DNA of 64,000 nt. It comes from Brevibacterium linens ATCC 9172 (GTDB lineage Bacteria > Actinomycetota > Actinomycetes > Actinomycetales > Brevibacteriaceae). A program made the position numbers and the translations under genes. This document shows positions 28,452 to 34,629 of the stretch, piece after piece (position 1 is the stretch's first letter; the number at the start of each line of letters is the position of its first letter). The notes beneath the pieces were generated by a model. That model did no database searches. It saw only the letters and a program-made list of their open reading frames with translations, and was not told the DNA's origin. Where the stretch lies: positions 186,001 through 250,000 of the forward strand of contig NZ_FXYY01000002.1 of assembly GCF_900169165.1 (NCBI RefSeq). Direction: 5' to 3'.

Positions 28452-29648
28452 ATGTTCATGGACATCACCTGGCAGGACTCTGTCACCGGCGCGGCAGGCT
28501 ATGTCGTCATCGACACCCTCGTGCGCGGCACCGCGTCGGGCGGACTGCGTATGCGCAAGGGCTGCTCGCTCGACGAGGTGCGCGGACTCGCCCAGGGGAT
28601 GACCCGCAAGGAAGCCATCCACCTCCGCGAGGGCCGACGCTATGTGCCCGTCGGCGGTGCCAAGGGCGGCATCGACTTCGACCCCCGCGCACCCGGAGCC
28701 AGGGACGTCCTCGAACGCTTCCTCGTCGACATCAATCCGATCATGCACGCCTACTGGGCTCTCGGCGAAGACCTCGGTGTCCGCCAGGACGACATCGACG
28801 AGATCCTCGACCGCCGCGCACTCGGCTCAGGACTGTCCGCCGTCGACAAGCTCGTCGACGATCCGGCCGCCGTCGAAGCCCGCGCGGACAAGGCGTTCTC
28901 CACCATCGTCGACGGCCTCGCCCAGGACGAACTCGTCGGCGGCCTCGGCGTAGCCACCTCGGTGCTTGCCGCCCTGCACGACGCCGGCCGCGCCCCCGGT
29001 GAATCCACAGCCGTCATCCAAGGATTCGGCTCCATGGGCGGAGCCACCGCCCGCTACCTCGCCGAGGCGGGACTGCGCATCGTCGGCATCGCCGATGCCG
29101 ACGGATTCGTCACCAACCCCGCGGGACTCGACGTCGAAGCGCTGCTGATCACCCGCGACCAGTTCGGCGGCATCGATCGCGCAGCACTGCGCCCCGAGGA
29201 CCACGTCGGCGATCGTGACGACTGGCTCGCCGCCGACGCCGACGTCCTGATCCCCGCTGCCGTGAGCTACTCGATCACGCCGGACAACTGCGACCGCATC
29301 ACCGCCTCACTCATCGTCGAGGCCGCGAACATGCCCGTCCTGCCCGCAGCCGAAGAAACGCTGCAGACCCGCGGCGTCACCGTCATCCCGGACTTCCTCG
29401 CGAACTCAGCGACAAACGCCTGGTGGTGGTGGGTGACCTTCGGCGACGTCGACGGCAGTTGGGACGACAGCCGCACCATCGTCACCACCACCCTGCGCGA
29501 CCTCACCGCCGAAGTCCTCACCGCCGCCCGCGACCAGGGCATCAGCCCCCGGGCGGCAGCGCAGGCGAAGGTCGATGCGAACCTCGCCGCGCTCCACGCG
29601 GCCTCTGCCGAAAACACCGCCGCCCCCGCCTCGGCGCCGGAGCGCTAG
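28452..29648 (+). CDS. Glu/Leu/Phe/Val dehydrogenase family protein
   Basis: The 398-residue protein has the N-terminal substrate domain with GGLRMRKGCSLDEVRGLAQGM and the catalytic-lysine motif VGGAKGGIDFD (Lys71), then an NAD-binding Rossmann domain with GFGSMGGATARYLAEAG and a late NSATNAWWWW segment. Family members oxidatively deaminate an amino acid to a 2-oxo acid. The sequence departs from classical glutamate dehydrogenases (short N-terminus, TASGGLR instead of the usual KGG substrate loop), so the substrate is open. It heads a unit with a CoA ligase 4 bases downstream, a TPP enzyme and an acyl-CoA dehydrogenase. Confidence 0.85.
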   Translation: MFMDITWQDSVTGAAGYVVIDTLVRGTASGGLRMRKGCSLDEVRGLAQGMTRKEAIHLREGRRYVPVGGAKGGIDFDPRAPGARDVLERFLVDINPIMHAYWALGEDLGVRQDDIDEILDRRALGSGLSAVDKLVDDPAAVEARADKAFSTIVDGLAQDELVGGLGVATSVLAALHDAGRAPGESTAVIQGFGSMGGATARYLAEAGLRIVGIADADGFVTNPAGLDVEALLITRDQFGGIDRAALRPEDHVGDRDDWLAADADVLIPAAVSYSITPDNCDRITASLIVEAANMPVLPAAEETLQTRGVTVIPDFLANSATNAWWWWVTFGDVDGSWDDSRTIVTTTLRDLTAEVLTAARDQGISPRAAAQAKVDANLAALHAASAENTAAPASAPER

Positions 29649-29652
29649 CGAC

Positions 29653-31755
29653 ATGGACGCGTTCTTCGATCCCGGCAGCGTCGCCGTCCTCGGAGCCTCG
29701 AACGATTCCAGCAAATGGGGTTTCTGGCTCGCGGCCGGAGCCCTGCGCGGATCCGAGCGCCGCCGCGTCTACCTCATCAACGCCACAGCCGCCTCGATCC
29801 AGGGCCGGCCGACGTACGCTCGCCTCAGCGACCTGCCGGAGACCCCGGAGCTGCTCGTCATCTCCGTGCCCGGCCCGACCGTCGCGGCAGTCGTCGCCGA
29901 AGCACTCGAGAACGGAGTGCGCGCCTTCCTCATCATCTCCGCCCGCGTCCCCGACGCCGACGCATTGGCTGCCACGATCCGTCAAGCCGGCGGCCGCCTC
30001 ATCGGCCCGAACTCCTTAGGGCTCGTCGACTCACACGCTGATCTGCTCCTGGCCTGGGGCAATTTCACCCCCGGAAGTCTCGCCGTGGTCACCCAGAGCG
30101 GACAGCTCGGCACGGAGATCGCCACCCTCGCGGCCCGCAGCGGACTCGGCATCTCCCGGTTCGCGTCGATCGGCGGCCAATCCGACGTCCGCGCCGCCGA
30201 AGTGCTCACCACCCTCGTCGACGACCCCGCCACCGCTCAGGTCGCGCTCTACCTCGAATCCTTCACCGGCGGCGCCGCCCTCGTCTCCGCCCTCAAAGCC
30301 CTGCGCGCCGCCGGGAAGCCGACGATGATCCTGACCACCGGAGCCTCCAATGCAGGAGCGCGACTGGCACGATCCCACACCGGGTCGATGACCACGGCCA
30401 TGGACACCATCGACGCCGCCTGCCGGGCCGCCGGCTCCATTCGCCTGACCACCCCCGGCCAGCTCGTCGAACTCGCCGGATTCTTCGCCTCGGCCTGGCT
30501 GCCGAACGGCCCGCGCATCGGTGTGCTCTCCGACTCCGGCGGGCAGGGAGCGATCGCCGCCGACACCGCCGAGAGCTGGGGTCTCAATGTCACCGAACTG
30601 ACACCGACCACGCGACAACGTGCCGCCGGAATCCTCACCGACGCCGACCACATCGACAACCCCATCGACCTCGACGGCGCAGGAGAGAAGAACCTCGACG
30701 TCTACGCGGACCTCGCCGAGGTGCTGCTGACCGATACGGACATCGACGCCGTCGTCCTGTCCGGATACTTCGGCTGCTACGGCGAGGACGTCCCCGACCT
30801 CATCGACCGGGAACTGGCCGTCGTCGACCGGTTGGGTGACCTCGTCGCCGAGGCGAAGAAACCCGTCATCGTCCACTCGATGAGCGCATCCTCGCCGGCC
30901 GTCACCCGCCTCTGGGAGCTCGGCGTCCCCGTCTGCACCTCCATCGAAGCGGCCATGCGCGTGCTCGCCCGCGCCGACTTCTACGCCGCCCATTCGGGCC
31001 GGCTCACCGAACCACTCGAACTCACCGGCCCCGTCACCCCGTGGGGCACCGGATACGCCGCCGCCCGAGCGGTGATCGAGGACGCGGGGATTCCCGTCCC
31101 TGCCGCTGTCACCGTGGGCAGCGTGGGCCCGGGGGAGACCCGCGCACCCACCGAGGCGGTCCCGGAATCCGGACTCAATCCACCGTTCGCGCTCAAGGCC
31201 GGATGGCCTGCTCACAAGACCGAGGTCGGGGGCATCGCACTGGGGTTGAACGACCTCCACGCGGTCGAAACGGCGTATGCGGACATGGTGGGCCGCCTCG
31301 GCGATGGTGAGTACATCCTCGAGGAGATGGACACACGTGACCATGTCGTCGAGATCCTCGTCGGGGGTCGGCAGGACGAGAACTTCGGGCCGCTCGTCAT
31401 CGTCGCCGCCGGCGGGACGGAGACCGAACTCTTCGCCGATACGTGGCTCGAACTCGCCCCCGTCACCCACACCGAAGCCCTCGACATGATCGCGCGGCTG
31501 AGCTGCTCGCGGCTGCTCACCGGATGGCGGGGCAGGCCCGCCGCAGACATCGACGCCCTGGCCGAGGTCATCGTCGCGGTGTCCCGACTGGTGGCCGGGA
31601 ACAACGCCATCGCCGAAATCGAGATCAACCCGGTGCGAGTCGCCCCGGACGGCGCCCTGGCTGTCGACGCACTCGTCGTGACAACGGACTACCCGCCAGC
31701 GGAGAACGTGTCAGCAGGGAATGTGTCAGCAGAGAACCCGAACAGCGAGGACTGA
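29653..31755 (+). CDS. acetate–CoA ligase family protein (NDP-forming acyl-CoA synthetase, fused subunits)
   Basis: A 700-residue protein with the alpha-type half first (CoA-binding SVAVLGASNDSSKWG, GPNSLGLVD, TQSGQLGTEIA, and the phosphohistidine motif ARSHTGS with His242), then an ATP-grasp beta-type half from about residue 470 (FALKAGWPAHKTEVGG, EILVGGRQDENFGPLVIVAAGG, EIEINPVRV). Family members interconvert an acyl-CoA, NDP and Pi with a free acid, CoA and NTP through a phosphohistidine. The ATG at 29653 is 4 bases after the dehydrogenase stop. Acyl-chain specificity cannot be read from sequence. Confidence 0.88.
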   Translation: MDAFFDPGSVAVLGASNDSSKWGFWLAAGALRGSERRRVYLINATAASIQGRPTYARLSDLPETPELLVISVPGPTVAAVVAEALENGVRAFLIISARVPDADALAATIRQAGGRLIGPNSLGLVDSHADLLLAWGNFTPGSLAVVTQSGQLGTEIATLAARSGLGISRFASIGGQSDVRAAEVLTTLVDDPATAQVALYLESFTGGAALVSALKALRAAGKPTMILTTGASNAGARLARSHTGSMTTAMDTIDAACRAAGSIRLTTPGQLVELAGFFASAWLPNGPRIGVLSDSGGQGAIAADTAESWGLNVTELTPTTRQRAAGILTDADHIDNPIDLDGAGEKNLDVYADLAEVLLTDTDIDAVVLSGYFGCYGEDVPDLIDRELAVVDRLGDLVAEAKKPVIVHSMSASSPAVTRLWELGVPVCTSIEAAMRVLARADFYAAHSGRLTEPLELTGPVTPWGTGYAAARAVIEDAGIPVPAAVTVGSVGPGETRAPTEAVPESGLNPPFALKAGWPAHKTEVGGIALGLNDLHAVETAYADMVGRLGDGEYILEEMDTRDHVVEILVGGRQDENFGPLVIVAAGGTETELFADTWLELAPVTHTEALDMIARLSCSRLLTGWRGRPAADIDALAEVIVAVSRLVAGNNAIAEIEINPVRVAPDGALAVDALVVTTDYPPAENVSAGNVSAENPNSED

Positions 31756-31757
31756 GA

Positions 31758-33392
31758 ATGGACCAGACGACCACCACCGGCGGGGCACATCTGGCTCGCG
31801 CACTCTAGGCCGAAGGGATCACCCGTGTCTTCGGGATCCCCGGCACCCATAACCTCGAGATCTTCGCGCAGCTGAGTGCCGCCGGAATCGCCATCGTCTC
31901 ACCCCGCCACGAACAGGGCGCGGGCTATATGGCCGACGGCGCCGCCCGCGTCACCGGTGAGGTGCAGGTCGTCGTCACGACCACCGGACCGGCCGCGCTC
32001 AATGCGCTCACCGCCCTGCTGCAGTCCTTCACCGACTCCGTACCCGTCCTCCTCATCACGCCGGGCATGCCGCTGACCCACCCCGGCCGCGGCAACGGGC
32101 TCCTCCATGAGGTTCGCGATCAGTCCGCGGCTCTCTCAGCCGTCCTCACCGAGGTCATGCGGGTCACGAGTCCCGGCGAGGTGTCGCTGGCGGTGGGGCA
32201 GACACTGTCGGCGATGCGTTCGGGGCGGACCCGTCCGGCCGCAATCGAGATCCCGCTCGATCTCATCGAAGCCGCCGGCCCCGGAACACGCCACCCGTCC
32301 GTGACCCGGGCACTGCCGGCTCCGGTGCCCTCAGCGATCGATGCCGCCGCCGAGGCGATCGCCGGTTCGACGCGACCGCTCATCATCGCCGGCGCCGGAG
32401 CTCACGGAGCAGGAGAGGAGGTCGCAGCGTTGGCGGAGACGCTCGGAGCGGGAATCGTCCTGTCGTCGAATGCGAAGGGACTCGTCGACGACCGCGCCGA
32501 GACCACCATCGGCGCCATCGGGGTCCTCGAACTGCTCCCCGAGCTCACGGGCGATGCCGATGCGGTCATCGCGATCGGCACCGAACTGGCCCCCAGCGAC
32601 TTCTGGCCCGACCCCCTGCCGCTGCCCGACACCGTCGTGCGCATCGACATCGACGAGGTGCAGATGCTCACGAACGCTGACGTCAGCCATCCGATCCTCG
32701 CCGCCGCGAAGGACGCGACAGCCGCCCTGAACGAGCGGATGTCCGTGCAGCGGACGGAGTCCGCGACCATCGCCGCACGGGACTGGACGGGCGGCTGGAA
32801 GGCAAGGGCCGCCTCGGCGATGGAATCCGACGGTCGACCCTGGGCCGATCTCTCGACGGCACTCACCGCGTTCGCGGAGACCGACGACTCGCCGCTCATC
32901 GTCGCGGCGGACTCGACGATGGCCTGCTACTACGGGGCGCAGACCGGGTGGAAGGCCCGCCCCGGTGACCGGTTCCTCTACCCGGCAGGGGCGGGCACGC
33001 TCGGCTTCGGTCTGCCCGCCGGAATCGGTGCGAAACTCGCGGCTCCGCAGGCCAGAGTGGTCGCGGTCGAAGGCGACGGGGGAGCGATGTTCACGATCGC
33101 CGAACTCGCCGCAGCCGTCCAGGCAGGCGTGCGGATGAGCCTCATCATCGTCGACAACGGCGGGTACGGGGAGATCCTCAACGAGATGGACGACCGCGGG
33201 GACACCCCGTCCGGGGTGAAGCTGACCGGACCGGACTTCCCGGCGCTGGCGCAGGCGATGGGGGCACGCGGGGTCCATGTCGACGGGGCAGATGCGCTGC
33301 TGGCCGCTCTCACCGAGGCGGAAGCAGCAAATGGTCCGACACTCATCCACATCACCGAGGATTCCCGGGCCGGAGCGGACATGCTCGACTGA
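31758..33392 (+). pseudogene. TPP-dependent 2-oxo-acid decarboxylase/acetolactate synthase-like gene with in-frame TAG at codon 17
   Basis: From the ATG at 31758 (2 bases after the ligase stop, with GAGGA upstream) the frame reads MDQTTTTGGAHLARAL, then TAG at 31806–31808, then AEGITRVFGIPGTHN and an uninterrupted 527-codon frame. Both sides match the start of TPP enzymes, where an ordinary residue, often Gln or Arg, fills the TAG position. The rest is intact: RHEQGAGYMADG with the catalytic Glu, and the TPP motif GDGGAMFT…DNGGYG. The next in-frame ATG (31929) lies after the catalytic Glu, so re-initiation would not give an active enzyme. A CAG-to-TAG change, readthrough or a sequencing error are the options. 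Confidence 0.8.
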
Positions 33393-33462
33393 CTGGGGAC
33401 GAGGGACGTCGGTCGGGCGCAATGGGGCGCCCGACCTCCACTGACAATGCGAAGGAGAACCG

Positions 33463-34629
33463 ATGAACTACACACCGTGGCCGCTGACCGATGAACAGCA
33501 CGACATCCTCGACCTCGTGCGCGGATTCGCTCACGACACGATCCGACCGGCCGGTCGCCGCGTCGACGAAGCCGACACCGAATCGCCCGTCGACATCTTC
33601 ACCGCAGCCGCGAAGCTCGGGATCACCGACTTCATGATCCCCGAGGAATTCGGCGGCGGCGGATTCACCGATGTCTTCACCCAATGCCTCGTCCAGGAAC
33701 AGCTGTGCTTCGGGGATCCGGGCATCGGGAACTTCGTGTGCTCGAACGGCTTCTTCGCCGACCCGATCCTCGCATTGGGCACGCCGGAGCAGAAAGAGGA
33801 GTGGCTGCGACCTCTCACGGGGCCGGAGCCGAAGATCACGGCGCTGGCGACGACGGAACCCGGCTCCGGATCGGATTCGGCGTCGATCATCACCCGGGCG
33901 GATGCCGTCGACGGCGGGTACGTGCTCAACGGGCAGAAGGCCTGGATCTCGAACGCGGGGCTCGCCGACTTCTACGTCGTCTTCGCCAAAACCGACTCCT
34001 CGCAGCGTTCGCGCGGGATCAGCGCATTCCTGCTGCCGCGGGAGACCGAGGGGATGGAGTTCGGGGCGCCGATGAAGAAGATGGGACAGCGGGCCATCGT
34101 GTGTCGGGAGATCTTCCTCTCCGACGCCTTCGTGTCCACTTCGGGCCGCCTCGGCGAGGAAGGGCAGGGGTTCTACGGACTCATGCGCACCTTCGACATC
34201 TCACGGGTGGTGCTCGGGGCTGCGGCGCTCGGCACGGCACGGGCGGCCTTCGAATATGCGCGTGACTATGCGCGAGAGCGCACACAGTTCGGGACGAGGA
34301 TCATCGATCATCAGGCCGTGGCGTTCCGGCTGGCGGATATGTCCTCGCGGATCGACGCCGCGTGGCTGCAGGTGCTCAACGCGGCGCGGATGCTCGACGC
34401 CGGTGACGCCGTGGGCCGGGAGAAGACGACGGCCGCGGCGGCCATGGCGAAGCTGAACGCCTCGGAGACGGCGATGTTCTGCACCTGGGCGGCCGTGCAG
34501 ACCCTCGGCGGATGGGGGTATTCGCGAGAGCATCCCGTCGAGCAGTGGATGCGCGATGCCAAGCTCGAGGAGATCGAGGAGGGCACCTCGGACATCATGC
34601 GGCTGCTCATCTCACGCAACCTCGGGTGA
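33463..34629 (+). CDS. acyl-CoA dehydrogenase
   Basis: FAD enzyme of 388 residues, full length for the family: N-terminal helices (LTDEQHDILDLVRGFAHDTI), the FAD-binding segment ALATTEPGSGSD, the middle beta domain (GYVLNGQKAWISNAG), and the C-terminal helical domain with RTQFGTRIIDHQAVAF and the catalytic-base region EEGTSDIMR. It would oxidise an acyl-CoA to the trans-2-enoyl-CoA and pass electrons to ETF. AAGGAG precedes the ATG. As the last gene of the module it fits downstream of the CoA ligase, suggesting oxidation of a branched or aryl acyl-CoA derived from an amino acid (inference). Confidence 0.92.
   Translation: MNYTPWPLTDEQHDILDLVRGFAHDTIRPAGRRVDEADTESPVDIFTAAAKLGITDFMIPEEFGGGGFTDVFTQCLVQEQLCFGDPGIGNFVCSNGFFADPILALGTPEQKEEWLRPLTGPEPKITALATTEPGSGSDSASIITRADAVDGGYVLNGQKAWISNAGLADFYVVFAKTDSSQRSRGISAFLLPRETEGMEFGAPMKKMGQRAIVCREIFLSDAFVSTSGRLGEEGQGFYGLMRTFDISRVVLGAAALGTARAAFEYARDYARERTQFGTRIIDHQAVAFRLADMSSRIDAAWLQVLNAARMLDAGDAVGREKTTAAAAMAKLNASETAMFCTWAAVQTLGGWGYSREHPVEQWMRDAKLEEIEEGTSDIMRLLISRNLG

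Follow-up and report, generated by a model that had tools for sequence, protein, structure and literature searches.

A probable recent nonsense mutation at codon 17 of a ThDP-dependent enzyme gene in Brevibacterium linens ATCC 9172

The interrupted gene and its reading frame

The window analysed here is a stretch of 64,000 nucleotides from Brevibacterium linens ATCC 9172 (G000:C27:186001-250000), taken from a draft assembly of 80 contigs. It carries a ThDP (TPP)-dependent enzyme gene that is interrupted by an in-frame TAG and is surrounded by the genes of what is probably a catabolic module. The features discussed below are as follows, with positions counted from the first letter of the window.

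28452..29648, forward strand: Glu/Leu/Phe/Val dehydrogenase family gene (PF00208), upstream; no internal stop
29575..31755, forward strand: NDP-forming acyl-CoA synthetase-like gene (ATP-grasp_5, Succ_CoA_lig), upstream; no internal stop
31747..31751, forward strand: GAGGA, likely ribosome-binding site of the interrupted gene, from the sequence; CGAGGA is kept before the start in close relatives
31758..33392, forward strand: ThDP (TPP)-dependent enzyme gene interrupted at codon 17, 544 codons plus stop, from translation, Pfam and Brevibacterium orthologues
31806..31808, forward strand: in-frame TAG at codon 17, CAG in the nearest relatives, from the sequence and the genus comparison
31911..31913, forward strand: codon of the catalytic Glu52 (RHEQ), from translation and homologue comparison
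31929..31931, forward strand: Met58, first in-frame start codon 3' of the TAG, from translation
33463..34629, forward strand: acyl-CoA dehydrogenase gene, downstream; no internal stop

Translation of the ThDP frame gives 16 codons, the TAG, 527 sense codons and a TGA at 33390-33392, and we found no frameshift or second stop elsewhere in the frame. In a Pfam search, the TPP_enzyme_N, _M and _C domains (PF02776, PF00205, PF02775) all match the part 3' of the TAG. Both results agree with a preliminary description of this DNA, which had recognized an otherwise complete TPP enzyme with a TAG at codon 17 and 527 open codons. The ATG at 31758 lies six bases after GAGGA and only 2 bases past the stop of the CoA ligase-like gene (TGA 31753-31755). 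The alignment with close relatives is free of gaps on either flank of the TAG (MDQTTITGGAHLARAL-Q-AEGIT in the nearest one), and therefore the ATG before the TAG is the real start, as had been proposed. The start of the synthetase-like gene itself is perhaps at 29656, which is a guess.

The catalytic role of the Glu in RHEQ is established for ThDP enzymes. The His51-Glu52 pair is present in 34/34 near homologues, counting the window's own copy, and in 64/64 distant ones, so the preliminary description was right to call this residue intact, and it is universal among the sequences compared. We considered whether translation restarts downstream of the TAG to give a shortened but working enzyme, as Met58 at 31929 does open a frame of 487 codons. 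A start-codon scan found no ATG, GTG or TTG in frame between the TAG and Met58, which makes Met58 the first available start, and it lies past the catalytic Glu. The restarted product would lack a residue found in 98/98 sequences (own copy included), and we rejected this explanation as having almost no chance of being correct.

Function and the surrounding module

Among NCBIfam families, the intact sister protein matches PRK07524 / NF005712 (5-guanidino-2-oxopentanoate decarboxylase) best, scoring 410 bits across almost its full length, and the window's part 3' of the TAG scores 400 bits. Neither reaches the curated cut-off, which is 500 bits. Since even the intact sister protein misses the cut-off, the "decarboxylation step" assigned to this enzyme in the preliminary description is a guess. 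The best matches among solved structures are BbmA (E value of 4e-43) and acetolactate synthases, which are significant but distant. A second homologue, 40% identical, lies elsewhere in the same genome (G000:C30:72771-74411). The nearest named relatives of the ThDP gene are from Brevibacterium. A literature search listed two papers, which by title and abstract concern Corynebacterium glutamicum and fungi and not this gene.

The module probably functions in amino-acid or 2-oxo-acid breakdown. In 19 of the 23 named Brevibacterium loci examined, the ThDP orthologue is flanked by the synthetase and acyl-CoA dehydrogenase genes. A second arrangement is seen in Brevibacterium permense VKM Ac-2280, B. 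iodinum ATCC 49514, B. oceani BBH7 and B. aurantiacum ATCC 9175 (L045, L047, L048 and L049, respectively), where a dehydrogenase-family homologue sits directly 5' of the ThDP gene and neither a synthetase nor an acyl-CoA dehydrogenase occurs within the stretch examined. By homology, the module recurs in a distant actinomycete, Kibdelosporangium philippinense (L059). Homologues of 4/4 module genes lie there within 7.5 kb at 47-60% identity and in another order, and the synthetase and acyl-CoA dehydrogenase homologues again adjoin the ThDP homologue.

Codon 17 in Brevibacterium and the draft assembly

Next, we compared codon 17 across a genus set of 57 genomes, including the window's own. A near full-length close match to the ThDP gene is present in 35 of these (own included), one further genome (G024) has a partial match, and the rest have weaker matches or none. 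Codon 17 was read in 29 other genomes plus four more (G027, G012, G023 and G024), with G078 and G075 left out. All 33 of the genomes read, from 35 others with an orthologue, have a sense codon at this position, and none shares the TAG. The codon is CAG in the nearest relative, G020, which is 98% identical in nucleotide sequence over the ThDP gene. Among the next six relatives, it is CAG in G013, G011, G035 and G033, AAG in G071 and GAA in G066. Judged from these codons, a single C-to-T change, private to this genome, accounts for the TAG. This is the cause that the preliminary description had thought simplest, and the comparison with sister genomes that it had suggested as a check bears it out.

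Residue 17 is variable, with K in 10, R in 9, Q in 8, A in 2 and S in 2 of the 33 other near orthologues, two more being unlisted. A change of Ile6 to Thr is also private among the aligned near orthologues (21 I, 4 L, 1 V; 7 unaligned), and Thr is common at this position in distant homologues. The 98% identity of the ThDP gene to G020 can be set beside that of the window segments, which align to G020 at 91-98%.

A single private base in a frame that is otherwise undecayed is also what a base-call or assembly error in an intact gene would look like. The assembly is a draft of 80 contigs, and although the TAG is present in it, this is the same source as the window and gives no independent support. 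Furthermore, no second genome of the species was found for comparison; the sets compared include a single genome for each species, and records very close to this genome may be absent from them, and neither an exact-pattern scan of viral contigs nor plasmids gave a match from other strains of the species. To the contrary, the assembly is not obviously error-rich. We mapped 198 of 248 sister-gene models to contig C27 and found ten with stops in the B. linens genome (12 stops in total) and one split model. Leaving the split model aside, we judge the ThDP gene to be the sole true coding interruption among the 198. From alignments and codon changes, we attribute the other nine to 5' ends modelled too long, to wrong frames or to a difference at the 3' end, and we rejected the idea of an error-rich assembly. 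Mapping the other way, onto G020, placed 200 of 215 models, with nine containing stops and one split. The one inspected closely, the sole TAG among these stops, lies upstream of the presumed real start of a PF00180 dehydrogenase gene. We regard an error as unlikely, and it is the main rival to a nonsense mutation.

Decoding of TAG, selection and probable loss of function

We then asked how TAG is decoded in this genome. Rfam identified 46 tRNA genes, and ARAGORN run on the 45 loci containing them returned 46 tRNAs with ordinary anticodons, including Gln CTG and TTG and Tyr GTA. No CTA anticodon is among the 46. RF1 has no internal stop, and its score of 458 bits is above the cut-off of 423. 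TAG is a regular stop here, ending 20 of 215 heuristic gene models on C27 (TGA ends 190 and TAA 5). Apart from the open frame, nothing speaks for TAG being read as an amino acid through a suppressor tRNA or a code change, and we rejected this as highly improbable given the tRNAs, the intact RF1 and the normal use of TAG. The preliminary description had left room for amber readthrough. Its suppressor tRNA is unlikely on this evidence, and what stands of the proposal is a slim chance of low-level readthrough. Programmed readthrough was likewise rejected, as RNA folding is unremarkable both 3' of the TAG and around it (z scores of -0.27 and +1.38, respectively) and relatives do not share the stop.

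Substitutions on the branch leading to the window were counted in two ways. Polarised with G013 only, the ThDP gene has 8 non-silent changes (stop included) to 11 silent ones on the window branch and 3 to 12 on the sister branch. The background, drawn from 43 further gene models in the window (three with trimmed 5' ends), gives 154:506 and 159:609, respectively. The difference from this background has a Fisher P of 0.058 with the stop (8:11) and 0.109 without it (7:11). Polarised with six outgroups, the counts are 9:11 (stop included) on the window branch and 3:14 on the sister branch. Six of the window-branch missense changes fall at outgroup-invariant positions (I6T, D45A, L331Q, V394A, S443A and R474L), as do three on the sister branch. 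Against eight other genes, the six-outgroup counts give P of 0.075 and the changes at invariant positions P of 0.060. A binomial comparison of the 8 missense and 11 silent six-outgroup changes with the 43-model background rate gives P of 0.054, so that rate is not rejected at the 5% level.

Missense changes are thus somewhat raised on the window branch. The rise is not significant and does not exceed that in the operon neighbors. The three module neighbors together have 20:28 in the six-outgroup polarisation, an equal ratio. The interrupted gene is therefore not alone in showing the excess, which is suggestive only as a sign of a dead gene. The missense share of these neighbors is above that of the 43 other models (154:506), which were polarised differently. 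There is perhaps a module-wide relaxation of selection across window positions 28452-34629. S443A, which lies beside the ThDP GDG motif, and R474L might be unfavorable. However, 12 further near orthologues carry Ala at 443, and 20 distant homologues carry Leu at 474.

Using the 8 missense changes of the six-outgroup count, the 11 silent changes and the G013-polarised 43-model background, we obtained a branch dN/dS of ~0.3 for the ThDP gene and ~0.1 for the sister branch. Neutrality over the whole branch is rejected (P of 0.005-0.015), as more missense changes would be expected if the gene were unconstrained throughout. Should the gene be dead, it was therefore lost recently. In the best fit, ~0.2 of the branch is unconstrained, and shares from 0 up to 0.65-0.79 have support. 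These counts fit a recent loss without proving one, and they do not separate a loss from a base-call error.

In-frame stops are widespread in bacterial genes and tend to be short-lived, according to Belinky et al. (2021, PMC7918605). As described there, they often occur in genes with dN/dS below 1, and readthrough has been proposed, in which the stop serves to damp expression (PMC7918605). The stop in the ThDP gene could similarly be tolerated if natural readthrough, for example by a near-cognate tRNA-Gln with a CTG anticodon, yields enough full-length enzyme. The intact remaining frame and a branch dN/dS well below 1 fit such tolerance, as do the many bacterial in-frame stops in genes with dN/dS below 1 in that source. 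However, the dN/dS argument weighs little here, because the stop is recent and private to one genome and the low dN/dS mostly predates it. The genome also has no suppressor tRNA detected, an intact RF1 and no unusual RNA structure at the site. We consider a tolerated stop improbable, and slightly more so the further proposal that the private TAG is a perhaps adaptive damper, in which low UAG readthrough would leave a little working enzyme and so tune module flux instead of abolishing it.

The explanation we favor, and think likely, is a recent loss-of-function nonsense mutation in an ordinary young broken gene. After the split from the nearest sequenced relative, as the comparison indicates, a C-to-T transition would have turned Gln codon 17 into TAG. 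Translation from the ATG at 31758 should then end after 16 residues, and a restart at Met58 would yield a protein without the catalytic Glu. Together, these two points make a young loss-of-function allele most likely. As expected of a pseudogene, intact orthologues occupy the equivalent locus in relatives (33/33 sense codons; synthetase and acyl-CoA dehydrogenase flanks in 19/23 loci), and an essential part is removed with no rescuing start, the first start being past Glu52. A recent CAG-to-TAG change in a frame that has not decayed further, one of the options named in the preliminary description, fits the relatives. The ThDP step of the surrounding module has probably been lost or taken over by another enzyme.

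For annotation, the ThDP gene is best marked as interrupted, and we predict that the ThDP step of the module is missing or reduced in the strain. The finding has little importance beyond this. It does offer a clean, natural, single nonsense change in a conserved cluster, usable to measure UAG readthrough in a high-GC actinobacterium.

The gene shares the three-domain ThDP-enzyme layout of the NF005712 family. It differs from that family in its sub-cut-off score, in the interrupting stop and in its acyl-CoA synthetase-like and acyl-CoA dehydrogenase neighbors. Among described in-frame stops, it resembles the Paenibacillus example of Belinky et al. (PMC7918605), in which a single in-frame TAG likewise stands in place of the CAG of relatives and the gene has dN/dS below 1. 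The main analysis in that paper deals with stops common to at least two species, whereas the TAG of the ThDP gene is found in one genome.
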